Shown here: in pieces, positions 37,724 through 56,990 of the stretch
Layout of the letters: each line of letters starts with the position of its first letter
How positions within the stretch are numbered: the first letter of the stretch is position 1
From: Dietzia sp. B32
Lineage (GTDB): Bacteria; Actinomycetota; Actinomycetes; Mycobacteriales; Mycobacteriaceae
DNA length: 64,000 bases
Direction of reading: 5' to 3'
Assembly (NCBI RefSeq): GCF_024732245.1
Contig: NZ_CP093845.1
Span: forward strand, 2,108,001-2,172,000
Translations under genes and position numbers: made by a program
Notes under the pieces: generated by a model
Seen by the model: the letters and a program-made list of their open reading frames with translations, nothing else
Databases searched by the model: none
Told to the model about the DNA's origin: nothing

Positions 37724-40700
37724 ATGTCGGAGCGACAACCCGACCCCGGCCGTCCGCGGGCGTCGCGGCCCGACCTGGCCCGCCGCGGATCGCCGCTCAA
37801 CTGGCCGGTCTGGCGCCAGCTCACCGGTGACGATCTCCTCGGTCGCGGCTCCGCGACCCGTTCCCGCCGCTCTCTCGAGATCACCCCTCGCACGACGACC
37901 GCCGACAAGGTGGTCAAGAGCGTCTGCCCGTTCTGCGCGGTCGGATGCGCCCAGGACGTCTACGTCTCCGACGGCAAGGTCATCCAGATCGAGGGCGACG
38001 AGAACAGCCCCATCTCCCGCGGCCGGCTGTGTCCGAAGGGATCGGCGAGCAAGCAGCTCGTGACCAACCCGGACCGCATCACCACGGTGCTCCACCGCAA
38101 GCCGTACGCGACCGAGTGGGAGGAACTCGATCTCGAGACGGCCATGGAGATGGTGGCCGAGCGAGTCCTCGAGTCCCGGAAGCAGTTCTGGGAGGAGACG
38201 GACTCGAACGGCGACACCGTCCGGCGCACCCGCGGCTTCGCCAGCCTGGGCGGGGCGACGCTGGACAACGAGGAGAACTACCTCATGAAGAAGCTCTACA
38301 CGGCGCTCGGCGCCATCGAGGTGGAGAACCAGGCGCGCATTTGACACTCCTCCACCGTTCCCGGTCTGGGAACCTCATTCGGGCGTGGTGGTGCCACGAA
38401 CTACCAGCAGGATCTCGCGAACGCCGACTGTATCGTCATCCAGGGTTCGAACATGGCCGAGGCGCATCCGGTCGGCTTCCAGTGGGTGATGGAGGCCAAG
38501 CGCCGAGGAGCGACGGTCATTCACGTCGATCCCCGGTTCACACGCACCAGCGCGCTCGCTGACCAGCACGTCCCCATCCGCGCCGGGTCGGACATCGCGT
38601 TCCTCGGCGGGCTGATCAACCACGTGCTGTCCACCGACGCATGGTTCTCCGAGTACGTGCTCGCCTACACCAACGCGTCGACGATCATCGGCGAGGAGTT
38701 CCTCGACACCGAGGACCTCGCGGGCCTGTTCTCCGGCTTCGACTCCGACGACCGGACCTACGACCTCGACTCCTGGCAGTACGCGGGCGCCCAGAACGAC
38801 ATGCCCGACGAGGGCCGCGATGACGACGACGCCGAGGACGAGGCCTCCGAGACCCCCGGTGCCGCCGGCGCCCGCGCGTCGGCGACGACCGAGGACCCCT
38901 CGCGCGACGAGACCCTGCAGCACCCGCACTGCGTGTTCCAGATCCTCAAACGGCACTTCAGTCGCTACACGCCGGAGATGGTCGAGCGGACCTGCGGCGT
39001 CGCCGCGGAGGACTTCCTGCGCGTGGCCCGTGCGCTTACCGAGAACTCGGGACGGGAGCGCACGACCGCCTTCTGCTACGCGGTGGGCTGGACCCAGCAC
39101 ACCGTCGGCGTGCAGTACATCCGCACGGCAGCGATCCTCCAGCTGCTGCTCGGCAACATCGGCCGGCCCGGCGGCGGCATCATGGCGCTGCGCGGGCACG
39201 CCAGCATCCAGGGCTCGACCGACATCCCCACGCTGTACGACCTCATGCCGGGGTACCTGCCCACGCCGAACGCCGGCGAGCAGCCGGACCTCGACAGCTA
39301 CATCGGTACCGACGACGAGGCGCAGGGCTTCTGGGGCCACATGCGCTCCTACACCGTCAGCCTGCTCAAGGCCTGGTGGGGGGACGCGGCGACCGCGGAC
39401 AACGACTTCGCCTACGACTACCTGCCCAAACTCACGGGCAAGCACGACTCGACCGTCACCGTGCAGCGACAAATCAACGAGGGCGGGGGCGGTTACTTCC
39501 TCGTCGGCGAGAACCCGGCGGTGGGTACCGCGAACGGGCGGATGCAGCGGGCCGGACTGGCGAATCTCGACTGGCTGGTCGTCCGCGACCTCGTCATGAT
39601 CGAGTCCGCCGATTTCTGGAAGAACGGTCCGGAGATCGAGACCGGCGAGATGCGCACCGAGGACATCGGCACCGAGGTGTTCTTCTTCCCCGCCGCCAAC
39701 CACGTGGAGAAGAAGGGCACGTTCACCAACACCCAGCGGCTGCTCCAGTGGCGGCACCAGGCCGTCGAGCCGCCGGGTGACGCGCGCAGCGAGCTGTGGT
39801 TCTACTACCACCTCGGGCGGCGGCTCAAGGAGAAGCTGGCCGACTCCACCGACCCCCGCGACCGGCCGCTGCTGGACCTGACGTGGGACTACCCCATGGA
39901 GCCGGGCACCGTGGACGAGCCGGACGCCGAAGCCGTCCTCGCCGAGATCAACGGCCGCGGCCCCGACGGCGAGCCGTTGTCGGCGTTCACCCAGCTCAAG
40001 CCGGACGGCTCGACCGCGTGCGGGTGCTGGATCTACTGCGGCGTGTACGCCGACGGCGTGAACCAGGCCGCGCGGCGGAAGTCGCGGCACGAGCAAGGAC
40101 CGGTGGCCCCGGAGTGGGGTTGGGCGTGGCCGGCGAACCGGCGCATCCTCTACAACCGTGCCTCCGCGGATCCGGAGGGCCGGCCGTGGAGTGAGCGCAA
40201 GGCACTGATCCGCTGGGACCCCGACGCGGACGACGGCGCTGGCCGATGGGTGGGCGACGACGTGCCCGACTTCGAGGCCGGCAAGTCGCCCGACTACACC
40301 CCGCCCGAGGGCGCGGTGGGTCCGGATGCCATCGGCGGCGCGCAGCCGTTCATCATGCAGGACGACGGCGTGGGGTGGCTCTACGCTCCCCGCGGGCTCG
40401 CCGACGGTCCGCTGCCCGCGCACTACGAGCCGCCGGAGTCGCCCGTGGCGAACCCGATCTACCCGGGTCACGACGCCAATCCCGCCCGCGCGATACGCCC
40501 CGGCCGGTACAACGAGACCCAGCCGGGTCACGGGCAGCCGGGCAGCGAGGTATTCCCGTTCGTGTTCACCACCTACCGCCTGACCGAGCACCACACGGCG
40601 GGCGCGATGAGCCGGACGCTGCCGTACCTGTCCGAGCTGCAGCCGGAGTTCTTCTGCGAGATCAGCCCGGAGCTGGCGCGGGAGCGGGGCCTGGTCAACG

Positions 40701-43161: not shown

Positions 43162-44925
43162 TCAGAGGATGGCGTGCCCGTCGTCGCCCTCGCGGCGGCT
43201 CAGCCCCCGGTCGGCGAGCGCCTCCAGCAGCGGCATCACGACGCGCCTGGAGGTGCCCAGATGGGTGCGGGCGCTGCTCGGGGTGAACGGCTGCGCGAGT
43301 TCCCCGAGCCTGCGCGCGGCCTCGGCGAACGCGCCCGGGGCCAGCCACACCCCGGGCCCCACGCCGACGAGGAGTCCGGCCCGCTCGCACGCCGAGAGCT
43401 CACGGGGCCCCAGGCCCAATTCGGCCAGGTCGTCGGCGGTCGGGGCGTCGAACGGCCTGACCCGGAGCCGCTCGGCCAGGGTCTCGGCCGCCGCCCGGAC
43501 AGACCGGGGAAGTCCCGGCCCGTCGCCTGCGACGACCCGACCTCGCTGCGTCCGCAGCGGCGCCGCCGCCGGATGGTCGAGGACGACCCCGAGCAGGGCG
43601 GCATCCGGCAGGCCCAGGGTGCGCCGGGCCGCCTCCGTCGGCAGGCCGGGATCGAGGGGATCGTCCCGGTCATGTCGACGTACGGCCCCGACGAGGGCCT
43701 CCGCGAGGGCCGCGACGTGGTCCGGGTCGATCAGCCACCCGCGGTGCGCCGGGTCGACGGACGGGACCGTGATCCCCCAGGCTCTCAGGTCGTCGACGTG
43801 GGCCACCCCGCGTCGGCTCAGCTCCGAGGCCAGGTCCGGACTCTCCGGGGTCGCCGAGAGCTCCTCCGCCCGACGTCGGGCCGCGCCGCGGCGTCGCAGA
43901 GGTGGCGGCGCCGGATCGAGCACCACGGCCCCCGCTGGAATACGGTCGGCGCCCGGTTCGCGCAAAATGAGCCGGTCCCCCACCCGCAGCGGCAGCGGGG
44001 CGGCGAGGGTGAGCCGGGCATGCCCCTCGTCGAGGGGCCGCACGCGCGCGGCCGTCGCCGCGGACCCGACGTGCAGCATCACCTGCTCCGGCAGCGCGTC
44101 CGTCCGCCCGTCGACGCGGACGTCGAGAGTCGTGATCGGGCGCCACCGACGCGGGGCGACCAGGGCACTGCCCCGCGGGATGTCCTCCGCCGCGACCCCA
44201 CGCAGGTTCACCGCGACCCGCGCCACCGCGGCGACCTCGTCGCGCCGCTGCCCGAGCGACTGCAGTCCACGAACCGTGACCTGCGGACCGTTCGGGCCCA
44301 GCTCCAGCACGTCGCCGGCCCGGATCGTCCCCGCCGGCAGTGTGCCCGTGACGACGGTGCCGGCGCCGCCGATGGTGAACGACCGGTCCACCCACAGCCG
44401 GACGTCGGCATCACGATCGGGCTCCGGCAGCAGCGTCCCCAGCCGGGCCAACTCGGCGCGCAGGGTGTCCAGTCCGGCGCCGGTGACGGCCGAGACGCAC
44501 ACCGCCGGGACGTCCGCGAGCGGGGTCCCGGCCATCGCGTCGCGGGCCTCGGCGAGCGCCAGGGCGGGATCGAGCAGGTCGCTGCGGGTGATGACGAGAA
44601 CCCCGTGCTCGACGCGCAGCGCGGTGAGCGCGTCGAGGTGTTCGGCGGACTGCGGCATCCACCCGTCATCGGCGGCCACGACGAACATCACCGCGGGAAC
44701 AGGCCCGATCCCGGCCAGCATGTTGGGGACGAACCGCCGGTGGCCGGGCACGTCGACGAACGCGACCGTGCGCCCGTCGTCGAGGGTGGTGGAGGCGTAG
44801 CCCAGGTCGATGGTCAGACCGCGGTGGCGTTCCTCGACCCACCGGTCGGGCTCCTCGCCGGTCAGCGCACGGACGAGGGTCGACTTGCCGTGATCGACGT
44901 GGCCGGCGGTGGCGACGACGAACAT
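43162..44925 (-). CDS. selB: Selenocysteine-specific elongation factor SelB
   Basis: A 587-residue translation factor that carries Sec-tRNA to UGA codons marked by a SECIS. The G1 motif GHVDHGKST, the DVPGHRRFV motif and the ITRSDL (NKXD-like) motif are present in the N-terminal GTPase domain. EF-Tu-like beta domains follow, and the C-terminal 200 residues contain the winged-helix domains that bind the SECIS hairpin. Its ATG overlaps the selA stop as ATGA. Its in-window client is the formate dehydrogenase on the opposite strand. Confidence 0.94.
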   Translation of the reverse strand: MFVVATAGHVDHGKSTLVRALTGEEPDRWVEERHRGLTIDLGYASTTLDDGRTVAFVDVPGHRRFVPNMLAGIGPVPAVMFVVAADDGWMPQSAEHLDALTALRVEHGVLVITRSDLLDPALALAEARDAMAGTPLADVPAVCVSAVTGAGLDTLRAELARLGTLLPEPDRDADVRLWVDRSFTIGGAGTVVTGTLPAGTIRAGDVLELGPNGPQVTVRGLQSLGQRRDEVAAVARVAVNLRGVAAEDIPRGSALVAPRRWRPITTLDVRVDGRTDALPEQVMLHVGSAATAARVRPLDEGHARLTLAAPLPLRVGDRLILREPGADRIPAGAVVLDPAPPPLRRRGAARRRAEELSATPESPDLASELSRRGVAHVDDLRAWGITVPSVDPAHRGWLIDPDHVAALAEALVGAVRRHDRDDPLDPGLPTEAARRTLGLPDAALLGVVLDHPAAAPLRTQRGRVVAGDGPGLPRSVRAAAETLAERLRVRPFDAPTADDLAELGLGPRELSACERAGLLVGVGPGVWLAPGAFAEAARRLGELAQPFTPSSARTHLGTSRRVVMPLLEALADRGLSRREGDDGHAIL

Positions 44926-46262
44926 CAGGCGAGCGCCTCCGCCCGGAGCACGAGCCGCCCCAGCTCGTCGTCGTCGCCCTCGGGTACCGCACGCAGATCA
45001 AGGAGGCACCGGCCGTCGGTCACGCGTCCCAGGACGGCGGGGCGTCCCGCGCGCAGCCTCTCGGCGACGTGCTCGGGCAGGGACACCGCGGCGCTGGGCA
45101 GGCCGACGCCCGGGGCGCCCCCGCCACCGACGGCGGCGACGGATCGGACGGCCTCCGCGTCCAGCCCCGCCGCGCGCAGCCGTGCGGCGATCCGCTCGGC
45201 ACGCTCCCGCAGTTCGGCCGGGTCGGCCTCGAGACCGGCGACGACGGGCGGACGCGGGCCGCGCAGCGTCGCCTCGAGGGCGGCCAGCGTGAGCTTGTCG
45301 ACCCGCAGCGCCCGGGCGAGCGGATGGCGGCGCAGGCGCTGCACGAGCGCGGCGTCGCCGGCCATGATCCCGGCCTGCGGGCCCCCGAGGAGCTTGTCAC
45401 CGCTGGACGTCACGAGGTCGGCGCCCGCCGCCAGCGTCGTGGTCATGTCCGGCTCATCCGGCAGCGTGGGGTGAGGTGCGAGCAGCCCCGACCCGATGTC
45501 CACCACCAGCGGCACGCCGAGCTCCCGCAGCTCGGCGGGCGGGACCGTCGAGGTGAAGCCGCTCACCACGAAGTTGGAGGGGTGGACCTTGAGGACGAAC
45601 GCCGTGGTGTCGTCGATCGCGCGGGAGTAGTCCTCGGCGTTGACCCGATTGGTGGTGCCGACCTCCCGCAACCGGGTGCCCGTGGATTCCAGCAGCTCCG
45701 GCAGGCGGAACCCGTCGCCGATCTCCACCATCTCACCGCGCGCGATGACGATCGTCCGCCCCGGCCCGCCCAGCGCGGTCGCGGCGAGCGCCAGGGCGGC
45801 CGCGCCGTTGTTCACCACGTGGACGTCTCCCGCCGTGGGCACGGCGGCCCGCAGTGCGTCGAGGGCGCCGCGTCCCCGCCTGCCCCGGCGGCCCGTCGCC
45901 AGGTCCAACTCCACGTCGTTGGTGCCCGCGGCCTCGGCGAGCGCTCGCACGGCGGCGTCCGAGAGCGGGGCCCGGCCGAGATTGGTGTGCAGCAGGACGC
46001 CGCTGGCGTTGAGGACGGGCGTCAGCGTCACGGGCGCGCTTGGCAGCGCGGCGAGCACCGCGCCGACGATCCCGTCGACCGCGAGCAGTCCCGCGCGGGC
46101 GCGGCCCTGGGCGTCGCGGATCTCGCCCTTGACGAGCTCGCGGCCCAGCCCGTCGACCGCCGCGGCGAGGCGGGGATCGCGGAGCAGGACGTCGGTGGAC
46201 GGGATGAGACGACGCGGATCGGGCGACGGCGCCCCCGACCCCTCGCGTGGCTGCTCGGTGAT
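44925..46262 (-). CDS. selA: L-seryl-tRNA(Sec) selenium transferase SelA
   Basis: A PLP enzyme that converts Ser-tRNA(Sec) to Sec-tRNA(Sec). The body has SGVLLHTNLGRAPLS, VVNNGAAA and the PLP lysine in SSGDKLLGG. The first ordinary start codon is a GTG at 46058, which would give 377 residues, but 68 upstream codons in the same frame encode the family's N-terminal domain (IPSTDVLLRDPRLAAAVDGL). These run back to an ATC at 46262, 9 bases after AGGGG, with no ATG, GTG or TTG between. The coding region is therefore drawn to 46262; use of an ATC start is inference, and a base error is the alternative. It is coupled to selB downstream and begins 38 bases after the tRNA-Sec gene. Confidence 0.88.
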   Translation of the reverse strand: MTEQPREGSGAPSPDPRRLIPSTDVLLRDPRLAAAVDGLGRELVKGEIRDAQGRARAGLLAVDGIVGAVLAALPSAPVTLTPVLNASGVLLHTNLGRAPLSDAAVRALAEAAGTNDVELDLATGRRGRRGRGALDALRAAVPTAGDVHVVNNGAAALALAATALGGPGRTIVIARGEMVEIGDGFRLPELLESTGTRLREVGTTNRVNAEDYSRAIDDTTAFVLKVHPSNFVVSGFTSTVPPAELRELGVPLVVDIGSGLLAPHPTLPDEPDMTTTLAAGADLVTSSGDKLLGGPQAGIMAGDAALVQRLRRHPLARALRVDKLTLAALEATLRGPRPPVVAGLEADPAELRERAERIAARLRAAGLDAEAVRSVAAVGGGGAPGVGLPSAAVSLPEHVAERLRAGRPAVLGRVTDGRCLLDLRAVPEGDDDELGRLVLRAEALA

Positions 46263-46300: not shown

Positions 46301-46396
46301 TGGCGGAGGCGGACGGGAATCGAACCCGCCTGACCGAGATACTCGGCCACGTCGGTTTTGAAGACCGCGGGGACCACCAGGTGCCCGGACGCCTCC
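46301..46396 (-). tRNA. selC: tRNA-Sec (anticodon TCA)
   Basis: The minus strand encodes a 92-base tRNA body followed by discriminator G and CCA (46301-46304). The anticodon loop CTTCAAA carries TCA, which reads UGA. The acceptor arm pairs GGAGGCG with CGCCTCC, and there is a long variable arm (GTGGCCGAGTATCTCGGTCA) and the T-loop TTCGATT. The extended acceptor and variable arms are features of selenocysteine tRNA. It lies just upstream of selA on the same strand, in line with a selC-selA-selB transcript, and is divergent from selD. Confidence 0.95.
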
Positions 46397-46467: not shown

Positions 46468-47478
46468 ATGGCCACCGAACCCATCTCGCCCGTCGCCCGG
46501 CTCACCTCCTACGCCCACGGTGGCGGGTGCGCCTGCAAGATCCCGCCCGGTGCACTGGAGAACGTGGTCGCGGACCTCATCGGGGCGCCGGTCCGCGATC
46601 CCGCCGCGGAGCTCATCGTGGGTCTCGACGACGGCGACGACGCGGCGGCGGTACGGATCGCCGGCGGCCGGGCCATCATCAGCACGGCCGACTTCTTCAC
46701 CCCGGTGGTCGACGACCCGAACGACTGGGGGCGCATCGCCGCGGCCAACGCGCTCTCGGACGTGTACGCGATGGGCGGGACGCCGATCATGGCGATCAAC
46801 CTGCTGTGCTGGCCGATGGACGTCCTGCCGTACGAGATGGCCGGGCAGGTGCTGCGCGGTGCGCAGGAGGTGGCCGGCGCCGCCGGCTGTCACGTGGCCG
46901 GCGGACACAGTGTCGACGACCCCGAGCCCAAGTACGGCATGGCCGTCACCGGCGTGGCGGACCCCGACCGGCTTCTGCGCAACGACGCGGGCCGGGCCGG
47001 GGTGCCGTTGTCGCTCACCAAGCCACTGGGGATCGGGATGCTCAACTGTCGGCACAAGAACACCGGCGAGGTGAGCCGAGAGGCGGTCGAGACGATGACC
47101 CGACTCAACGACGTCGCCTCCCGGGACGCCCTGGCCGCCGGGGTCGAGTGCGCCACAGACGTCACCGGGTTCGGACTGCTCGGTCACCTGTACAAGATGG
47201 CCCGGGCCAGCGGCGTCTCCGCGGTGATCGATGCTGCCGCCGTTCCCTACCTCGAGGGTGCGCGGCAGGCGCTCGCCGACGGCTTCGTCAGCGGCGGGAC
47301 CCGACGCAACCTCGACTGGGTGCGTCCGCACCTCGCATCCGGGGTCGACGAGGGCGAGCTGCTCCTGCTCGCCGACGCCCAGACCTCCGGCGGGCTACTC
47401 GTGGCCGGGGAGATCCCGGGGGGCACCGTGATCGGCGAACTCGTGCCCGCCGGCGACGCGGCCATCACCGTGCGCTGA
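46468..47478 (+). CDS. selD: Selenide, water dikinase (selenophosphate synthetase)
   Basis: A 336-residue AIR synthase-family enzyme that makes selenophosphate from selenide and ATP for SelA. The catalytic site is GGGCACKIPP near residues 18-27, with Cys (not Sec) at the key position and the essential lysine two residues after the second cysteine. Conserved AANALSDVYAMGG and CHVAGGHSVDDPEPKYG motifs follow. It is transcribed away from the tRNA-Sec gene, 71 bases apart. Confidence 0.95.
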   Translation: MATEPISPVARLTSYAHGGGCACKIPPGALENVVADLIGAPVRDPAAELIVGLDDGDDAAAVRIAGGRAIISTADFFTPVVDDPNDWGRIAAANALSDVYAMGGTPIMAINLLCWPMDVLPYEMAGQVLRGAQEVAGAAGCHVAGGHSVDDPEPKYGMAVTGVADPDRLLRNDAGRAGVPLSLTKPLGIGMLNCRHKNTGEVSREAVETMTRLNDVASRDALAAGVECATDVTGFGLLGHLYKMARASGVSAVIDAAAVPYLEGARQALADGFVSGGTRRNLDWVRPHLASGVDEGELLLLADAQTSGGLLVAGEIPGGTVIGELVPAGDAAITVR

Positions 47479-47808: not shown

Positions 47809-48996
47809 TCAGGCGCTGCGGTCGAGGCGGGCGAACGCGTCGAAGATGCGGGCACCGTGGGCCAGCGCGCGCTCGTCGAGTACGAACCCCGGGTGGTGCA
47901 GGTCGGTCTCCTCGGACTCTCCGTCCCACACGCCCAACCGCAGGTAGACGCCGGGGATCTCCTCGGTGTACCAGGCGAAGTCCTCGCCGCCGCTGGACTG
48001 CTCGGCGGTGCCCACCCCGTCCGGTCCGAGCACGGATTCGACCGCCTTCGCGGCGAGATCGGCGCACTCGTCGTCGTTCACCACGGGCGGCACACCCTGG
48101 ATGTACTCGACCTCGGTGCGCGCCCCGTACAGGGCGCCGATCCGCTCGACGGTCTCGCGCACCAGCGGCTCGACGGTCGCCCACACGTCCCGGTCCGCGC
48201 TGCGCAGCGTTCCCCAGATCTCGCCCGAGTCGGGGATGACGTTGGGCGCGGACCCGCCGGCCTTGATCGAGGCCCACGTGAGCACGGTGCCCGACCGCGG
48301 GTCGATCCGCCGGTCGATCACGCCCGTGACGCCCGTGACGATCTGGGCGAGGGTGAAGACGGTGTCCTGGGTCTCGTGCGGACGCGCGGTGTGCCCGCCC
48401 GCCGACCGGACGGTGATGCCGATCTTGGCGTTGGAGGACGTGATGGCCCCGCCGGTCACACCCACCTCGCCGACCCGGCGGTGCGGGTCGCAGTGCAGAG
48501 CGAGGATGCGGTCGACCCCCTTGACCACGCCCTCCTCGACGCAGTCCTTGGCGCCGCCGGGCATCGTCTCCTCGGCGGGCTGGAAGATCAGCCGTACCGG
48601 GCGGGGCGGGGGGTCGGCGACCAGCATCTCGGCGGCGCCCAGCAGCATCGCGGTGTGGCCGTCGTGCCCGCAGGAGTGGCTGACGCCCTCGACCTCGGAG
48701 GAGAAGGACTCGCCGGACTCCTCGCTCATGGCCAGCGCGTCGATGTCCGCGCGCAGCGCCACCACGTCGGTCGACGTGGCCCCGTCGGCAGCGGCGATGT
48801 CGCACCACAGCCCGGTTCCCACCTCGAACCGCTCGGGCTCGAGCCCCATCGACCGGAGCTGCGACTCGATGTACCCGGTCGTCTCCCGCTCCTCGTAGGA
48901 CAGCTCGGGGTGGGCGTGGATGTGCCGCCGCCACTGCACGAGCCTGCCCTCGAACCCGGCCGGGTCGGGGGTCTCATTCTTCTTGCGTCCGAACAT
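47809..48996 (-). CDS. M20-family metallo-amidohydrolase
   Basis: A 395-residue enzyme of the M20D subgroup (hippurate, indole-acetyl-amino-acid and N-acyl-amino-acid hydrolases). The metal-binding motifs HIHAHPELSYEE and SCGHDGHTAMLLGAAEML are clear, as is the dimerisation domain in the middle. It hydrolyses amide bonds of N-acyl amino acids or small peptides; its substrate is unknown. Its start overlaps the S9 peptidase end by 23 bases, and it closes a run of genes for carboxylate-amine ligases and peptidases. Confidence 0.9.
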   Translation of the reverse strand: MFGRKKNETPDPAGFEGRLVQWRRHIHAHPELSYEERETTGYIESQLRSMGLEPERFEVGTGLWCDIAAADGATSTDVVALRADIDALAMSEESGESFSSEVEGVSHSCGHDGHTAMLLGAAEMLVADPPPRPVRLIFQPAEETMPGGAKDCVEEGVVKGVDRILALHCDPHRRVGEVGVTGGAITSSNAKIGITVRSAGGHTARPHETQDTVFTLAQIVTGVTGVIDRRIDPRSGTVLTWASIKAGGSAPNVIPDSGEIWGTLRSADRDVWATVEPLVRETVERIGALYGARTEVEYIQGVPPVVNDDECADLAAKAVESVLGPDGVGTAEQSSGGEDFAWYTEEIPGVYLRLGVWDGESEETDLHHPGFVLDERALAHGARIFDAFARLDRSA

Positions 48997-50863
48997 CGAA
49001 CACCTCCTGGCAGAACTGGACCACCCGGTCGCCGAGAAGCTGCCGGTTGGCCAATTTCACGAATTCATGACCTTCGTCCTCGAACAGCAGGACGTCCACC
49101 GGTACGCCACTCCGGCGCAGGAACTCCACGGCCTGATCGGTCTCGCTGAGCGGCACATTGGTGTCGTGCGCGCCGTGGACGAAGAGCATCGGGACGTCCA
49201 CATGGTGGTAGCGCCGCAGGGGCGAGGCCTCCCGCAGGAGTTCCCGTTCCTGGAGCGGGTTGCCGTACTTGGGGTAGGCGGCCGCGGCGATCCACGGCTC
49301 CGTGGTGCGGTAGAAGGTCTGCAGGTCGCTCATGCCGCACGCGGCGATCCCGCCGCACCACCTCCCGGGATGACGGACCAGGGTGGCGTTGACCAGGTAG
49401 CCGCCGTAGGAGCGGCCCGAGACCACCGCCCGACCGGGGTCGGCGATGCCCTCGTCGATCAGGTGCAGCAGGGCGTCCTCGACGTCGTCGATCGCCGAGA
49501 ACCGCCCGTAGCGGTCGTCGGCGTGACTGTAGAAGCGCCCCGCGCCGGTGGAGCCGCGCACGTTGGGCAGGAAATAGTTCACGCCGATGTCGAGGTAGCG
49601 GCGGGCGATGTCGTTGTACCCGGGGCGCGACTGCCCCTCGGGGCCGCCGTGGAGGTGGACCACGGTCGGGCCCGGTTCGTCGCCGATGTCGGGCCGGTAG
49701 AGCCAGCCGCTGAGCTGGAGCCCGTCACGGGCGGGGAACTCGACCAGTGTCGGCGCAGGATCGGGCTGCTCGGGCGGCCGCCCGGTCCACCTGCGGTTGT
49801 CCACGTCGTACATCACGGTGCGGGGAGGTTGGTCGAGGCTCTGGACGGTGAGCGCGAGCAACCGGCCGTCGGCGGTGAGCGTCGGGGACGACACCACGAC
49901 CTCGGGCAGCGGCGGCCGGACGATGACACGGGGGCGTTCCGGCCGCAGGTCGAGGACCTCGATCTCCGACAGGCCGCCGCGCACGTTCCACAACAGGACC
50001 GCGGTCGAGCGGTCCAGGCTCACCTCGACCTTGTCGAGATCGGCGTCCGTGCGGAACGCCACCGGCCAGGACTCGGTGGAGTCCTCGTCCGCCTCGACCG
50101 CGAGCAGGCCCATCCGGTCGGCCGAGTGGTCGCTGCGCACGATCATCCGCATGGGGCGGTCGGCGTCCCCGGCGTCGAGGATGACCCCCGCGTCGGTGGT
50201 GGAGCCGGTGTCGACGGGCAGCAGGGGCCACCACCGGCCGTCGGGGACGATGCGCAGCAGCTCGCGGTTCCCGCGAGCGCCCACCCTGAACAGCGCGGCA
50301 CCGTCCCACGCGTGGACCAGTGCGCCGCCCATCCGGCGGTCGACCACGGTGCTCTCCCCGGTCTCCGGGTCCACGAGTCGGCCCTCGGCCAGGCCCTCGG
50401 AGTCGAAGGCCGTCACCGCGAGCAGGTCGCCGTCCCACCCGACGATCTGCACGGTGGCGTCGCTCGAGGTGTCGACGGGATAGACGGCGTGATCCTCGGG
50501 GTCGGTGGTGACCAGCCAGATCCGTTCGCGTTCACCGCCGTCCGGAGCGACCTCGCAGGCCAGCCACCTGCCGTTGGGCGAGTACGCGACGCGGCGCACC
50601 GGACCGTCGACGGGCAGGACCACGTCGCGTTCCGGCCCGGCACCGTCCAGCCCGCCCGGTCCGAGCGGCCGTTGGACGGCGCGCGGGTAGCCGGAGCGCT
50701 CGGTGACCACGCATGCCAGCATCGACCCGTCGGGCGACAGGTTGGGGGAGGTGGTGTGGCGGATCTTGGTGGGGCCCCCGGCGGCGTCGTCGGGAGGACC
50801 CGCGATGTCCCGGGACTCCGCCTCCTCGGTGACCTCGACTTCGACCTCGGTGGTGTCACGCAC
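48974..50863 (-). CDS. S9-family prolyl-oligopeptidase-like serine peptidase
   Basis: A 629-residue peptidase with an N-terminal beta-propeller (residues about 30-360) and a C-terminal alpha/beta-hydrolase domain. The catalytic serine is in GRSYGGY, the aspartate is in HGAHDTN, and a histidine in DEGHEF completes the triad. Such enzymes release short peptides or acyl-amino acids and cannot attack folded proteins. There is no signal peptide. The GTG at 50863 overlaps the stop of the ligase gene upstream by 8 bases; a GTG at 50896 would add an unlikely extension. Clustered with two ligase genes and an amidohydrolase, it may process their product. Confidence 0.87.
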   Translation of the reverse strand: MRDTTEVEVEVTEEAESRDIAGPPDDAAGGPTKIRHTTSPNLSPDGSMLACVVTERSGYPRAVQRPLGPGGLDGAGPERDVVLPVDGPVRRVAYSPNGRWLACEVAPDGGERERIWLVTTDPEDHAVYPVDTSSDATVQIVGWDGDLLAVTAFDSEGLAEGRLVDPETGESTVVDRRMGGALVHAWDGAALFRVGARGNRELLRIVPDGRWWPLLPVDTGSTTDAGVILDAGDADRPMRMIVRSDHSADRMGLLAVEADEDSTESWPVAFRTDADLDKVEVSLDRSTAVLLWNVRGGLSEIEVLDLRPERPRVIVRPPLPEVVVSSPTLTADGRLLALTVQSLDQPPRTVMYDVDNRRWTGRPPEQPDPAPTLVEFPARDGLQLSGWLYRPDIGDEPGPTVVHLHGGPEGQSRPGYNDIARRYLDIGVNYFLPNVRGSTGAGRFYSHADDRYGRFSAIDDVEDALLHLIDEGIADPGRAVVSGRSYGGYLVNATLVRHPGRWCGGIAACGMSDLQTFYRTTEPWIAAAAYPKYGNPLQERELLREASPLRRYHHVDVPMLFVHGAHDTNVPLSETDQAVEFLRRSGVPVDVLLFEDEGHEFVKLANRQLLGDRVVQFCQEVFDVRTQEE

Positions 50864-53465
50864 GGTGAATCCAGGTGTCCTTTCCGCCGCCCCCACTCGA
50901 GGCGTTGACGACCATGGTGCCCGCCGGGGCCACGCGCGTCAGTGCGACGGGCGGTGCAGAGGCGAGGATCTCTCCCCCATCGCCGTGCCGCAGCATGACG
51001 AACGCCCGCATGTCGACGTGTCGACGCTGCAGCTCGCGGCCGTCGAAGGTCGGCAGCGTGGACAGAGGCTGCACCTCCTGCGCGACGAACCGGTCGCCGT
51101 GGCGGCGCAGTTCGTCCCGGCGCTCGTCGAGCTCGCGGGGCGAGCACTCCGGACCCACGGTGATGTCCGACCCGCCGTATCCGTCGATCGGCTTGACCAC
51201 CAACTCGCCCAGCCGGTCCAGGACCTCCCGGCGCTGGTCCGGGTCGGCGCAGAGGTAGGTGTCGACCTGGCCGATGAGGGGCTTCTCGCCGAGGTAGAAG
51301 TCGATGATCTTCGGGACCAACGCGTAGATCGCCTTGTCGTCGGCCGCGCCGTTGCCCGGCGCGTTGACCACGGCGACACCGTGTTCCGCCATCGCCCCCA
51401 GCAGGCCGCTGCGTAGCGCGGTGCCGTCGGCCCCCGTGGAGGACAGCAGCATCTCCTCGTCCATACGGACGTAGAGCACGTCGATCCTCTGACGCTCCCC
51501 ACCCTCGACCCGCCACAGTCCGGAGTCCTCGCACACCAGGTCCGAGGGGGTCACCAGGATCCCACCGACCGCCTCGGTGACGCTGTTGAGGTCGAACGCC
51601 TCGAGCTCGTCCTCGGCGATCACCACGGCGATCGTCGGATCGTCGACGCCCTCGGGCGCAGCCGCCCGTAGGGTGTCGGTCAGCATGGCGAGGGCGTCGC
51701 GGGGGTCGTGGACCTCCGAGCGCGCGCCGAATTCGGGGTAGCCCTCCGCGATGCGGTCGCGCAGGGCGACCGCCATCGCCATTCCCCCGGGCATCCGGAG
51801 GTTGTCCTCGAGCACGATCCACTCGCCCGGTGCCGTGGAGACCAGGTCCACGCCGCACACCGGCGCGTGCAGGACGCCCTCGGGGACCGCGCGCCCGGTG
51901 GGCCGGAACCCGGGGGCCCGCTGGAGCGCCTCGGCGGGGACCACGCCGGCCCGGCTGATCTCCCCCGCCCCGTAGATGTCGCGCAGGAACATCTCCATCG
52001 CGCGGGCACGCTGCTCGATGCCCGCGGAGATCCGCGCCCACTGGTCGGCCGGGACGATCCGTGGGACGGAGTCCAGCGGGAAGACCTGCGGTTCGTCCTT
52101 GCCGTACACCTTGAGCGTGATGCCCATGGAGCGCAGGGTGTCGTCCACCTGCGCCTTGCGCTCGCACAGGACGTCGGGGCCCAGGTCGGACACGGCCTTG
52201 AGCACGTCCACGTACTCGGGCCGCGGGGAGCCGTCCTCGGCGATCGCCTCGTCGTGCACCTCCTCGGTCACCGCCTCGCCGAGCGGCGAATAGGCGGCGA
52301 GCATGCTCCGCATCCCCCGGTCGTCGCTGATCTCCCGGGGTCGGATCCGCCCGACGGTCTCCGCGAACAGGACGGCGATCACGTCGCTGCGGCGCCCCCG
52401 TCGGCGGTGCGCCGCGCGCTGGCGGGTCGCCGAGGTCGCGGCGCCGCGGACCCCGTCGAGCAACTCCAGCACCAGGTCGAGTTCGCCTCCGGCCCGGAGG
52501 TGGTCGACGTGGTCGTCGACCAGTCCGGTGAGCACCTCGGTGGCGGGCCGGGGACGCCCGGTGGCCACGTCCACCAGGTCGCCCTCCAGTCCGGAGCGGG
52601 CGGCGCGCCAGAACGCCGCCGCAAGGACGGCGTCGGAGGGACCGTCCCACCGGTCGGATCCCGGGTCGTGCTCCGCGTCCCGTGCGGCGAGGACGCGGTC
52701 GACCGCCGCGCGGAACAGGGCGGCGACGACGACGAGGGTGTCGACGGTGCTACAGGAGTCGCAGGCCACGAGTTCGATTCCGTCCCCGTCCCGGGCGGGG
52801 CGGACGTCGACCGCGATGGACTCCCGTCCCGCGACCACGCCGGTGGCGATGATCTCGTCCTCACAGGCGAGCGCCTCGGCGGCGGTGTCGGCGGCGTACG
52901 CGGGCACGTGTGCGGGTGACCACTGACTCTCGAAGTAGCGGGTGGAGGCGTAACCGGAATCGGTGCCGTCGGCCCAGTAGGGAGAACTCGCCGACAGTGC
53001 CAGCAGCACCGGTGCGAGGGCGGCGACCCGGCGGGCCGCGTACTGGGCCTCGTCTGCATCGGCAGTCTCGACCACCACGCGGAAGCCGGCCGAGGCGCGG
53101 GTCTGGGACTCGCGGCCCGGCGCGGGGTGGGGGTCCTGCGGCGCGGGTTCGAACTCCACGCCGGGCGAGGCCAGGGACCCGGCCGCGACCACCCCGGTCC
53201 GCAGCCCGTTGGCCGCCTCGGCCAGTCGGGCCCGGTTCCGGCGGAGGGCATCGCCCAGGTCGCCGATCCCGGTGTGGGCGCCCGCGTCCGCGACCACGAC
53301 CGCCCCGTGTTGCTCCGGCCGGACGTGGCCCTCCTGCCCCTGCTGCCCCGTGTCGCCGAGAGCGGCGAGCACGTCCGCGGCCCGCCGAACCGGTCGCCGG
53401 CTCCTCGTGTCGACGAGGTGGAGTTCCTCTTCGACTCTGATCCATCGCTGTGCGTCGGTCATCAT
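50856..53465 (-). CDS. GCS2-like carboxylate-amine ligase fused to a circularly permuted ATP-grasp domain
   Basis: An 869-residue fusion. Residues about 5-370 resemble glutamate-cysteine ligase family 2/YbdK-type ligases (VEEELHLVD, GYASTRYFESQW, RAARSGLEGDLVD). Residues about 400-865 match circularly permuted type 2 ATP-grasp proteins (DUF404/DUF407): FPLDSVPRIV, VCGVDLV, LEDNLRMPGGMAM, VVKPIDGYGG and a C-terminal NASSGGGGKDTW. Each half could join a carboxylate to an amine using ATP, so the protein may extend a small peptide. The ATG at 53465 is chosen by comparison with the paralog next door. Its stop overlaps the S9 peptidase start. Function unknown. Confidence 0.85.
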   Translation of the reverse strand: MMTDAQRWIRVEEELHLVDTRSRRPVRRAADVLAALGDTGQQGQEGHVRPEQHGAVVVADAGAHTGIGDLGDALRRNRARLAEAANGLRTGVVAAGSLASPGVEFEPAPQDPHPAPGRESQTRASAGFRVVVETADADEAQYAARRVAALAPVLLALSASSPYWADGTDSGYASTRYFESQWSPAHVPAYAADTAAEALACEDEIIATGVVAGRESIAVDVRPARDGDGIELVACDSCSTVDTLVVVAALFRAAVDRVLAARDAEHDPGSDRWDGPSDAVLAAAFWRAARSGLEGDLVDVATGRPRPATEVLTGLVDDHVDHLRAGGELDLVLELLDGVRGAATSATRQRAAHRRRGRRSDVIAVLFAETVGRIRPREISDDRGMRSMLAAYSPLGEAVTEEVHDEAIAEDGSPRPEYVDVLKAVSDLGPDVLCERKAQVDDTLRSMGITLKVYGKDEPQVFPLDSVPRIVPADQWARISAGIEQRARAMEMFLRDIYGAGEISRAGVVPAEALQRAPGFRPTGRAVPEGVLHAPVCGVDLVSTAPGEWIVLEDNLRMPGGMAMAVALRDRIAEGYPEFGARSEVHDPRDALAMLTDTLRAAAPEGVDDPTIAVVIAEDELEAFDLNSVTEAVGGILVTPSDLVCEDSGLWRVEGGERQRIDVLYVRMDEEMLLSSTGADGTALRSGLLGAMAEHGVAVVNAPGNGAADDKAIYALVPKIIDFYLGEKPLIGQVDTYLCADPDQRREVLDRLGELVVKPIDGYGGSDITVGPECSPRELDERRDELRRHGDRFVAQEVQPLSTLPTFDGRELQRRHVDMRAFVMLRHGDGGEILASAPPVALTRVAPAGTMVVNASSGGGGKDTWIHRA

Positions 53466-53533
53466 TCCCACGCTAAGGGAACCCGGACGTGCCCGCACCC
53501 GCAGCCGCGCCACTCCGCGGAACGGGCCCGGAC

Positions 53534-56116
53534 TCAGCGCATGATCCACGTGTCCTTGCCGCCGCCCCCACGTGAGGAGTTGACGATCATCGACCCCGCC
53601 GGTGCCACCCGGGTGAGTCCGGCCGGGACCGCGTGGGCGGTGGTCCTGTCCCCCTCCCGCCGGACGTGGGCGAACGCGCGCAGGTCCACGTGCCGGCGCT
53701 GCATCCGGGTGCCGTCGAAGGTGGGCAGTGTGGACAGGGGCACGACCTCCTGGGCGATGAACCCCTCCGGTCGGGTGAGCAGGTCCTCCCGGCGGGCGGC
53801 GAGTTCGGCCTCGGAGCATTCCGGACCGATGGTGATGCCGAGGCCGCCGTACCCGTCGATGGGCTTGACCACGAGTTCGCCGAGCCGGTCCAGCACGAGG
53901 TCCCGCTGGGTCCGGTCGGCACACAGGTACGTGGGGACCTGGTCCAGGACGGGGGTCTCGCCCAGGTAGAAGTCGATCATGGCGGGGACGGACGCGTAGA
54001 CGGCCTTGTCGTCGGCCACCCCGTTGCCCAGCGCGTTGGCGATCGTCAGGCGTCCGGCTCCCAGCGCGTCGAGCAGCCCGTCGCGCAGGGGGACGCCGTC
54101 CTCCCCGGGGGAACTGAGGAGCATGTCCTCGTCGATCCGGGCGTACATCACGTCCACCCGGTGCAGGTCGCGGCCGGCACGGTGGTGCAGGATTCCGTCG
54201 CGGAAGGCCAACCGGTCGGGCGTGACCAGGGGCAGGCCGGTGCGCTGCGCGATGAGCCGGTGTTCGAACCACGCCGAGTCGGTCGCGCCGGAGGAGACCA
54301 CCGCGAGCTGCGGGTCGTCCCCGGCGGCCGGTGGCGCGGCCGCCTCGAGCGTCTGCCGGATCATGCCGAACGCCTGGTCCGGCGTGTGCAGGTCGAACCC
54401 CTCCGTGAGGTCGCCGAACAGCGAGGTGGTCATCTGCCGGAGCGCGTGTGAGAAGGCGATCCCGGACGGCACCCGGACGTTGTCCTCCAGAACGAACCAC
54501 TTGCCGTCGTCGCCGCACACCAGGTCGATCCCGCAGATGTGCGCCCGGGTCCGCCCCGGTCGTTGCACCCGTCCCGTGCTGCGGTGCCCGGGGGCGCGGT
54601 CCAGCGATTCGGGCGTCAGGTGGCCCGCGCGTACGAATTCCCGGTCCCCTTAGATGTCGTCGAGGAAGGCGTCCAGGGCACGGGCGCGCTGTTCGGTGCC
54701 CGTGGCCAGCATCCGCCACACCTCCGGCGAGATGATGCGGGGTACGAAGTCCATCGGGAACGCCTGGGGCCGCTCCTGCCCGGTGACCCGGAACGTCACC
54801 CCGGCGACCGAGGCCTCCTGTTCAGCCGTCACCTGTCGCGACCGGAGCCGCACGGTGCCGGCCCGCTCCAGGGCCGACACCAGCGGGCCGTAGGACCGGC
54901 GGGGCGAGCCCCCCTCCTCGACCGCCTCGTCCCAACTGGGGTCGGCGTCCAGACCGTCGATCGGTTCGTAGACGCCGAACAGTCGGGAGTGGGCGTCGGG
55001 GACCGCCGACCGGGGACCGCTGACCCCCGCTGTCTCCGCCGCGAGCAGGTCCACCACGTCGTGGGCGTGCCCCCGTCTGCGGAGGGTCTGACGCTGACGG
55101 AACGCGCTGCTGCCGTTGTAGAGCGCGTTGTCGAGCAGGGTGCACACGGTGTCGAGGTCGCCCGACCGCGTCAACTCGTCGGTCAGGGAGTCCACCAGGT
55201 CGGAGACGACGTCGGCGGCGGGCCGGGCCCGGAACGTGGCGGGGTCCACGAGGTCGCCCTCGAGGCCCGACCGCGCGGCGCGCCACAGGGCGGCGCGCAG
55301 CCTGGTCTCGGCCGGAGCGGTGACCTCGGCGCCGTTCGCGATCGCGGCCGCCTCACGCTCGACCAGCGCCCGGAACAGGGCGGCCGCCAGGACGGTGGCG
55401 TCGGAGGAGGGGCAGGCGTCGCCCACCTGCAGCTCCACCGACCGTCCACCCGGCCCGGGCTGCACCCCGAAGCCCACCATCGACGCATCGACCACCACCC
55501 CGCTCGCCACGAGGTCCGCCACCAACTCGTCGAACTCCGCCGCCGAGCACACCCCGGCGACCGGCGCGGCCGTGGGCCACTGCGAGGCGGCCACCGACCG
55601 GCAGCTCGCGTAGCCGGAGTCCGACCCGTCCCGCGGGAAGGGCGAGCTCGCCGTGAGGGCGAGGAGCACCGGCAGGTACGGCGAGACCCGGCAGGACACC
55701 CGGACCGCCTCGTCCGCATCACGGGCCTCCACCCGGATGCGGACGCCACAGTAGATCTGGTCCCGGGCCAGGTACTCGTAGTCGGCCAGGAGTCGCCGCG
55801 TCTTCGGACTCTCGTCGACGAGAGCGGATCCCGGGGGCACGAGCGGGACGGCCCCGGCGGCCACCACCGCCAACCCGAGCTCGATCCCTGCCTCGTTGAG
55901 TCCCGCCCGCTCGGCACGCAGGGCCGATCTCAGCTCCGCCGCCGACTGGGCGGGGTCGGTCGCCACGCGGACGACGCAGTTGCGCAGCTCCTCCCCCGCG
56001 CCGTGTCCACCCCTCCGCGCCAGCAACTCCGCCGCACGGGGTGCCAGCTCCCGACTCGTCGTGTCGAGGACGTGAAGGTCCTCTTCGACGACCATGGTCC
56101 TCAACCCTGCTTCCAT
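53534..56116 (-). pseudogene. Second GCS2/ATP-grasp fusion paralog with an in-frame TAA
   Basis: The sequence is about 860 codons in one frame, paralogous to the gene that follows it over its whole length (GCS2-like half: VEEDLHVLDT, GYASCRSVAASQW, RAARSGLEGDLVD; ATP-grasp half: CGIDLV, LEDNVRVPSG, VVKPIDGYGG, NSSRGGGGKDTW). A TAA at 54650-54652 interrupts FLDDI-stop-GDRE, where the sister protein has a tyrosine (FLRDIYGAGE). The stop lies inside the ATP-grasp half, not at the domain boundary. A GTG at 54568 could restart the rest. Recent inactivation, a sequencing error or translation as two pieces are the options; the rest of the frame is undamaged. The start is taken as the ATG at 56116. 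Confidence 0.82.
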
Positions 56117-56189
56117 GAAGAAAATGTAGGGCCGAAGGACGGAGTTCACATCCGGACGCGACGTGGGATGGATCTCATCGGGTCCGGGT

Positions 56190-56990
56190 TCAGCGCGCCT
56201 TCCACACCGGGGCACGCTTCTCCGCGAACGCCCGCGGGCCCTCGGCCGCGTCCTCGGAGGTCATGACGTTCATCATCTCCGTGTCACTGACCTTCCACTT
56301 GTCGACCTCCGCCGGACGCCCGCCGTCGGTTATACCGAGCGCGACCCGTTTGGTCCCCTGAACCGCCAGCGGCGCGTTGGCGGCGATGGCGCCGGCGAGC
56401 TCGAGCGCGGTGTCGAGCAGCCGGTCGGCCGGGACGACGTGGTTGATCAGGTGCAGGTCGAGCGCCCGCCCGGCGGTGATCGGCTCGCCGGTGAGCATCA
56501 TCTCCATGGCCACGCGGTGGGGCAGCTGGGCCGGCAGCCGGAACGCGCCACCGGCGGCGGCGATGAGCCCACGCCGCACCTCCGGCAGTCCGAACACCGC
56601 GTGGTCGGCGGCCACCACGAGGTCGCAGGCCAGGGCGATCTCGCAGCCCCCGCCCAGTGCGGTGCCGTTGACCGCGGCGATCACGGGGACCGAGACGTAC
56701 TGCTGCATCATCCCCGCGAATCCCCACTGCCGGTTCTCGGCCGGGAAGATGTCCTCACCCCGGGAGATGGCCTTGAGGTCCGCGCCCGCACAGAACGACC
56801 GCTCTCCGGCGCCGGTGATCACGACCACCCGGATCTCTGGGTCGGTGTCCGCCTCGTGCAACGCGTTGCCCAGCAGCGTGCTGACCTCCCCGTTGACGGC
56901 GTTGCGGGCCTCCGGGCGGTCGAAGGTGACGAGCAGGACGTGATCCCGGCGCTCGGTGCGGACGGCGGGACGGTTCTCGATGTCGGTCAT
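56190..56990 (-). CDS. Enoyl-CoA hydratase/isomerase family protein
   Basis: A 266-residue crotonase. The oxyanion-hole segments FCAGADLKAI and NGTALGGGCEIALACDLVVA are intact, and LPEVRRGLIAAAGGAFRLP follows, as in mycobacterial EchA proteins. It hydrates or isomerises an acyl-CoA in fatty acid, sterol or aromatic degradation; the acid residues of the classic two-glutamate hydratases are not both evident, so the exact reaction is open. The gene is on the same strand as the ligase cluster, 73 bases upstream of it, but probably has an independent metabolic role. Confidence 0.88.
   Translation of the reverse strand: MTDIENRPAVRTERRDHVLLVTFDRPEARNAVNGEVSTLLGNALHEADTDPEIRVVVITGAGERSFCAGADLKAISRGEDIFPAENRQWGFAGMMQQYVSVPVIAAVNGTALGGGCEIALACDLVVAADHAVFGLPEVRRGLIAAAGGAFRLPAQLPHRVAMEMMLTGEPITAGRALDLHLINHVVPADRLLDTALELAGAIAANAPLAVQGTKRVALGITDGGRPAEVDKWKVSDTEMMNVMTSEDAAEGPRAFAEKRAPVWKAR

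Follow-up and report, generated by a model that had tools for sequence, protein, structure and literature searches.

The question raised by this locus is what two ligase genes and two hydrolase genes make, or take apart, together. In a stretch of 64,000 nucleotides from Dietzia sp. B32 (contig NZ_CP093845.1, positions 2,108,001 to 2,172,000; hereafter the window), taken from a single-contig 3.7 Mb genome that is 99.99% complete, two tandem genes (copies A and B) each encode a GCS2-like carboxylate-amine ligase domain fused to a circularly permuted ATP-grasp domain (CP_ATPgrasp), and are followed on the minus strand by genes for an S9 peptidase and an M20 amidohydrolase. Comparison with related genomes gives moderate confidence that this operon is a Dietzia version of a module found in actinobacteria and composed of a GCS2-CP_ATPgrasp ligase, the amidotransferase AsnO and an S9 peptidase, in which the Dietzia ATP-grasp domain would ligate and the S9 and M20 enzymes would recycle the product.

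A ligase, amidotransferase and peptidase cluster outside Dietzia

In genomes G023, G035 and G025, a single fusion gene is followed by a protein of family TIGR03104 (AsnO, N-acetylglutaminylglutamine amidotransferase) and then by an orthologue of the S9 peptidase. All three TIGR03104 proteins tested exceeded the cut-off of 570.1 bits by a wide margin (957.5, 963.0 and 940.8 bits, respectively), and the window S9 peptidase was 46, 41 and 39% identical to its counterparts. When the fusion, AsnO and the ligase Ngg (TIGR03103) were searched for in the same 394 genomes of the class, AsnO was found in 105, Ngg over its cut-off in 52 and the fusion in 46. Among the 105 AsnO genomes, 49 carried Ngg, 37 carried the fusion and none carried both (Fisher p = 1.4e-14, a value overstated because the genomes share ancestry). 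AsnO was located within 2 kilobases (kb) of the fusion in 35 of 46 loci, always downstream and on the same strand, and five more AsnO genes had a GCS2-only gene directly upstream. For these counts, two pieces each in G237, G362 and G150 were joined as one fusion, the G263 match (residues 302-855), which lies at the edge of a contig, was taken as a fusion, and nine GCS2-only rows were tallied separately, five of them with AsnO within 2 kb; the ATP-grasp-only rows of G074 and G269 and the second row of G171 went uncounted, and the window copy B row was dropped, its genome having already been counted.

Among the matches listed, all 19 full-length fusions from outside Dietzia had AsnO downstream, followed by S9 in 18, with the contig of the nineteenth stopping within AsnO. 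These 19 came from Mycobacterium (metagenome-assembled genomes, MAGs, and one isolate), Williamsia, Actinoplanes, Micromonospora, Winogradskya, Sphaerisporangium, Pseudonocardia, Glaciihabitans, Microbacterium and others. The scan of named loci covered the best 80 matches, and the clusters of 23 of these (L119-L141) were inspected; an insertion lay between the fusion and AsnO in L129 and L137. Locus L120, on a contig titled as a Nevskia MAG, held a trio that, as in the Mycobacterium loci, shared 65-79% identity with the G023 trio, and is probably mis-binned.

The contents of the loci point to two parallel trios, Ngg/AsnO/M42 and GCS2-CP_ATPgrasp/AsnO/S9. Eight classic loci, hand-picked as seven from the class sample plus G026, held the AsnO-Ngg pair in 8/8, an M42 peptidase in 6/8 (counted anywhere in the fetched locus, that of L210 being on the other strand) and S9 in 0/8; automated scoring of the same loci gave AsnO in 7/8, as L203 fell below the 55% filter, and M42 in two, owing to a distance filter. 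Across 32 GCS2-type loci from other genera, S9 was present in 30, and M42 and Ngg in none. These 32 were chosen for having AsnO and ten AsnO-less loci were kept separate, the linkage rate being the 35 of 46 given above. The mutual exclusion of Ngg and the fusion, together with the split between S9 and M42, suggests that the fusion replaced Ngg in a make-and-recycle pathway resembling that for N-acetylglutaminylglutamine amide (NAGGN). The pattern in genus g20, where 18 species have AsnO with Ngg and one (G344) has AsnO with the fusion, likewise speaks for such a replacement.

The NAGGN pathway, encoded by asnO-ngg and a peptidase gene in Sinorhizobium and in Pseudomonas (PA3459-PA3461), has the same ligase, amidotransferase and peptidase trio as the relatives of the Dietzia operon, whose clusters share its AsnO family. 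It differs in its ligase, which is a GNAT-ATPgrasp rather than a GCS2-CP_ATPgrasp fusion, and in its peptidase, which is of the M42 rather than the S9 type; further, an acetyltransferase was not recognised in the fusion cluster. As described in PMC8070244, Ngg acetylates one glutamine and joins a second to it, AsnO amidates the product, and deletion of the operon in P. aeruginosa slows growth at high osmolarity. The most likely role of the trio outside Dietzia, judging from gene content that is observed and chemistry that would carry over by analogy, is to make and recycle a solute of the amidated-dipeptide kind, parallel to NAGGN: ligation, the role of Ngg, would fall to the fusion, AsnO would amidate, and the S9 enzyme would recycle in the role of the M42 peptidase.

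A possible alternative is that the substrate of the CP_ATPgrasp domain is a protein or peptide, which it would tag or cross-link, and that no free dipeptide is made. Tagging of this kind has been proposed for clusters of stand-alone CP_ATPgrasp_2, alpha-E and transglutaminase genes, and the closest solved relative of the copy B ATP-grasp part (residues 403-867, E 7.3e-82) is a stand-alone CP_ATPgrasp_2 protein, 3n6x, whose chain lacks a GCS2 domain and which is named only 'putative glutathionylspermidine synthase'. However, alpha-E and transglutaminase genes were not noticed in the neighbourhoods, which were judged by eye with no family search made. The conserved partner of the fusion is AsnO, and the characterised substrate of AsnO is a free dipeptide according to two studies (PMC8070244, PMC5563000), so that tagging appears quite improbable.

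The Dietzia operon and its altered ligase

Relative to this trio, the Dietzia operon has an intact fusion in copy B and S9 downstream of it, but no AsnO directly downstream. None of the 23 Dietzia genomes, that of the window included, had AsnO over the cut-off, the best AsnO-like match reaching 337 bits (G012), and Ngg was absent from all 23 at E 1e-30. The peptidase linked in the NAGGN pathway thus has a counterpart in Dietzia, but of the S9 type, plus M20, rather than M42. Four changes therefore distinguish the genus: AsnO is gone, the fusion is duplicated, the GCS2 domains have lost the predicted catalytic Glu and His but continue under purifying selection, and M20 is added. M20 lay beside the fusion in 0/32 of the GCS2-type loci from other genera, and the enoyl-CoA hydratase/isomerase family (ECH) gene that adjoins the Dietzia ligases lay beside it in 1/32, on the other strand and at 40% identity; both therefore look like Dietzia additions. 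The four-gene linkage proposed in the preliminary description of the locus accordingly divides among relatives, where M20 is unlinked and the fusion and S9 mostly stay together.

Copy B (50856..53465, minus strand) is an intact fusion of 869 residues, with a GCS2 domain (70.6 bits; Pfam cut-off 21) and a full-length CP_ATPgrasp_2 domain (325.1 bits, domain positions 1-374). Copy A (53534..56116, minus strand) has the same two domains, with a GCS2 score of 118.7 bits. It passes the TIGR02050 model of YbdK-type ligases at 189.4 bits (cut-off 176.4), which copy B, at 123.1 bits, fails. The S9 peptidase (48974..50863, minus strand; Peptidase_S9, 140.1 bits) is of the acylaminoacyl-peptidase type, its nearest solved chains being an amino acyl peptidase (5l8s) and acylamino-acid-releasing enzymes (2qzp, 1ve6), and no signal peptide was seen when judged by eye. 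The M20 amidohydrolase (47809..48996, minus strand; Peptidase_M20) is aminoacylase-like, scoring 325.9 bits to TIGR01891 (cut-off 153.75) and matching five solved chains, including yxeP, a plant ILR1-like indoleacetic acid (IAA)-amino acid hydrolase and an N-alpha-acyl-glutamine aminoacylase (6slf). In the best alignments with solved chains, the Ser, Asp and His triad of S9 and the metal-site His and Glu of M20 were aligned, residues established as catalytic. The domain assignments of the locus are secure. Copies A and B are separated by 68 bases, copy B overlaps S9 by eight bases and S9 overlaps M20 by 23. The tandem arrangement originally described therefore stands in its places, domains and spacings, except that the reading frame of copy A is interrupted and that the ECH gene upstream had gone unmentioned.

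Although the GCS2 family is common to both, the Dietzia domain differs from the YbdK-type carboxylate-amine ligase (1r8g, TIGR02050) in being fused to an ATP-grasp domain and in having the Glu of MLELATD and the His of HVHVG replaced. Of 76 GCS2 columns invariant in 19 relatives, 20 were lost in most A copies and 28 in most B copies, and those lost in both include Glu47, Asn49, Gln123 and His125 (G023 numbering). Glu47, Asn49 and His125 were present in 19/19 relatives and Gln123 in 18/19, and the Glu and His also occur in YbdK 1r8g; these two are predicted metal ligands. Replacement of Glu47/His125 was by Arg/Arg in copy A, and by Val/Ala/Ser and Val/Thr, respectively, in copy B. Counting the sequences that cover each position, the Glu was lost in 7/7 A and 12/12 B copies and the His in 7/7 A and 13/13 B copies, with copy A of G015 left out of the residue counts and copy B of G021 and G022 left out of the GCS2 counts. 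Nor was a second GCS2 gene seen that might rescue this loss: the 25 GCS2 rows, found in 18 of the 23 Dietzia genomes, correspond to the places of these same genes or to pieces beginning at a contig start, and four of the five genomes lacking a row are incomplete.

These losses raise the possibility that the operon is catabolic or vestigial, with S9 and M20 mattering for the degradation of peptides or N-acyl-amino acids and the ligases persisting as drifting remnants. The uniform loss of the GCS2 Glu and His and the absence of AsnO from the genus are in its favour, as is the state of copy A, which among 14 readable species is complete in six (G002, G003, G005, G011, G021 and G022), broken in two (the window and G015, where GCS2 also goes unmatched) and missing from the interval between ECH and copy B in six (G008, G009, G010, G013, G016 and G017). 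The ATP-grasp domain argues against it. Of 84 ATP-grasp columns invariant in 17 relatives, most A copies lost seven and most B copies 11, leaving 77/84 and 73/84 kept, and the median ratio of nonsynonymous to synonymous substitution rates (dN/dS) was 0.156 for this domain in copy A and 0.186 in copy B, close to the 0.168 of S9, whereas remnants would be expected to decay. Copy B is, moreover, present in 19/22 congeners. The vestigial explanation is consequently considered unlikely. For the GCS2 domain, the median dN/dS was 0.228 in copy A and 0.288 in copy B, compared with 0.203 for M20 and 0.162 for ECH (samples of 7 A, 12 B and 14 each of S9, M20 and ECH), so that selection on GCS2 is relaxed, yet purifying and far from neutral. 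Given a domain that has lost conserved residues but stays under such selection, we read the Dietzia GCS2 as a pseudo-enzyme domain, probably retained for binding or folding. The suggestion that both ligase types of the locus join carboxylates to amines therefore probably fails for GCS2 in Dietzia, as both copies lack residues invariant in relatives.

In a quick tree (outgroups L143, L145, L148 and L183) in which long branches were flagged, one of them L139 beside Dietzia, the Dietzia A and B copies formed sister clades (support 89 for A+B) within a clade of Mycobacterium and Williamsia fusions, indicating that the duplication was a Dietzia event. In G021 and G022, copy B matches from protein residue 375 onward only and there is one GCS2 row per genome, so that the GCS2 part of this copy has seemingly been lost. 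In loci L045 (5782-7188) and L046 (8473-9879), from two Dietzia genomes, copy B was seemingly CP_ATPgrasp-only beside an uninterrupted copy A.

In the window, copy A ends after 488 residues at an in-frame TAA (54652-54650, minus strand) in the N-terminal part of its ATP-grasp domain, and the region is split into two listed open reading frames (54650-56215 and 53534-54568). A frameshift was rejected as the cause, the in-frame TAA having been found instead. A restart yielding a useful ATP-grasp domain from the 3' half is also unlikely: the first in-frame ATG, GTG or TTG past the stop is a GTG at 54568, from which translation would give a product without Pfam domain positions 1-60, the match starting at 61. 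It remains conceivable that the TAA is a sequencing error. There was no clear sign of decay past the stop, with an ATP-grasp dN to G021 of 0.0675 for the window versus 0.0585 for G011, and the corresponding GCS2 values were 0.122 and 0.132. In the quick tree the end branch of copy A was longer in the window (0.038) than in G011 (0.025) and that of copy B shorter (0.011 versus 0.041), so a mild speed-up of the window copy A is possible. Copy A in Dietzia sp. B32 is probably a recent loss-of-function allele.

Across the genus, the order copy B-S9-M20 was kept in 17/17 fetched loci, and ECH adjoined the ligase genes in 13/13 loci extending far enough. The former is weak evidence of linkage, as the neighbouring selenocysteine genes are also conserved; stronger evidence comes from the related fusion clusters, which include the S9 orthologue in most loci of other genera. 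The window ECH gene (56190..56990, minus strand; ECH_1, 208 bits) ends 73 bases upstream of copy A and may share a transcript with the ligase genes. On the other side of the operon, the selenocysteine set looks complete, to the extent that protein names were assigned by eye with no family search made, in that a formate dehydrogenase-like frame reaching 41029 has an in-frame TGA at 38342-38344 (plus strand; context ENQARI-U-HSS), and a tRNA-Sec (46301-46396) and SelA-like (44925-46058), SelB-like (43162-44925) and SelD-like (46468-47478) genes lie nearby.

Difficulties for the proposed role and relation to described systems

Several observations weigh against the proposed module and its role in Dietzia. 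Three congeners lack copy B, and while two of these are only 64% and 88% complete, G012 is 99% complete yet without the operon, which must therefore be dispensable. The substrates of S9 and M20 are assigned from distant homologues, and no product, assay or expression data on the Dietzia genes were found. In the class sample, the co-occurrence counts are phylogenetically non-independent, AsnO was not within 2 kb in 11/46 fusion loci (the window included), and G104 carries the fusion together with Ngg, with AsnO not detected. Conversely, 17/106 AsnO loci had no Ngg, fusion or listed GCS2 within 2 kb; six of these were inspected (G058, G178, G212, G335, the second copy of G235, and G345), of which four had S9 after AsnO and G058 had GCS2 upstream of it. 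Neither AsnO nor S9 adjoins the fusion in L110-L113. Finally, L115, L116 and L117 have the order GCS2-AsnO-S9 with GCS2 unfused to ATP-grasp, so the ATP-grasp part is either not always needed or supplied elsewhere; outside Dietzia, GCS2 rather than ATP-grasp may then be the main ligase, in which case Dietzia has lost its main catalyst.

Loci L101-L104 form a second AsnO-less lineage with fusion and S9, like Dietzia, to which G104 belongs. The GCS2 Glu and His are intact in L101, L102 and L104, the members that were aligned.

A pathway for a glutathione- or mycothiol-like thiol or a gamma-glutamyl peptide was rejected as highly improbable. In its favour, copy A GCS2 scores 271.6 bits against a glutamate-cysteine ligase subfamily model, under the cut-off of 332. 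Against it, the Dietzia copies no longer have the conserved Glu and His, the family linked elsewhere is AsnO, and thiol genes were not recognised in the clusters by eye, with no family search of neighbours made. The make-and-recycle pathway for a short peptide that had been envisaged for the locus fits, given that relatives carry AsnO with the same S9 and that fusion and Ngg are never together with AsnO, while its thiol variant gains nothing.

The literature offers a partial precedent. A Frankia study (PMC5563000) describes an actinobacterial 'asnO-ngg cluster' with AsnO and a peptidase, in which the putative Ngg is less than 15% identical to known Ngg and the gene order differs, the peptidase lying between asnO and ngg; words starting with 'carboxylate' do not occur in its main text. 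In Frankia alni, the 'carboxylate-amine ligase' FRAAL4489 was 5.08-fold higher in abundance in propionate-fed versus fumarate-fed nitrogen-fixing cells (PMC10252897). The place of FRAAL4489, interpolated between FRAAL4436 (4,823,328) and FRAAL4513 (4,899,008), agrees with that of the G078 fusion (4,874,925-4,877,468). Genome G078 is presumed here to be F. alni. Another F. alni paper credits NAGGN to FRAAL1888 and FRAAL2171 (PMC5768760), which conflicts with the present data in that their numbering places them away from the single TIGR03104 match of G078. A literature search linking N-acetylglutaminylglutamine with a carboxylate-amine ligase found nothing among the papers covered, and one for 'circularly permuted type 2' with ATP-grasp turned up one Bifidobacterium paper. 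A prior mention may exist in Sagot 2010 or in the amidoligase survey Iyer 2009. The actinobacterial trio is widespread and apparently without a name. Within the reach of the searches made, the earlier view that no named system has this set is borne out for precisely these four genes; the set nevertheless derives from a broader module that stands close to a named pathway.

Proposed pathway and its significance

On the reading of the operon as a derived form of this module, the Dietzia ATP-grasp domain, in B32 mainly that of copy B, would join two small carboxylate or amine substrates into an unamidated product, with GCS2 serving as a binding or structural part. From this product the S9 enzyme would free the half that is N-acylated or N-terminal, for M20 to deacylate or split further. 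A more specific proposal, put forward tentatively, is that the trio is a second actinobacterial dipeptide-amide pathway, with a GCS2-CP_ATPgrasp double ligase in place of Ngg and, as its product, a relative of NAGGN that is gamma-linked or lacks the acetyl group, of which the Dietzia version would have an unamidated product, an ATP-grasp ligase with a conserved but dead GCS2, and recycling by an acylaminoacyl peptidase and an aminoacylase.

NCBIfam names TIGR03104 as the N-acetylglutaminylglutamine amidotransferase, yet 37/105 AsnO genomes of the present sample carry the other ligase and none of these has Ngg. Their product may be a different compound, and their cluster would be missed wherever Ngg is made a search requirement. 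The trio is compact enough for expression in one piece, with mass spectrometry to identify what it makes. Dietzia presents a natural experiment, in which the ligase is conserved and the conserved residues of its partner domain were lost in the same genus as the amidation step.

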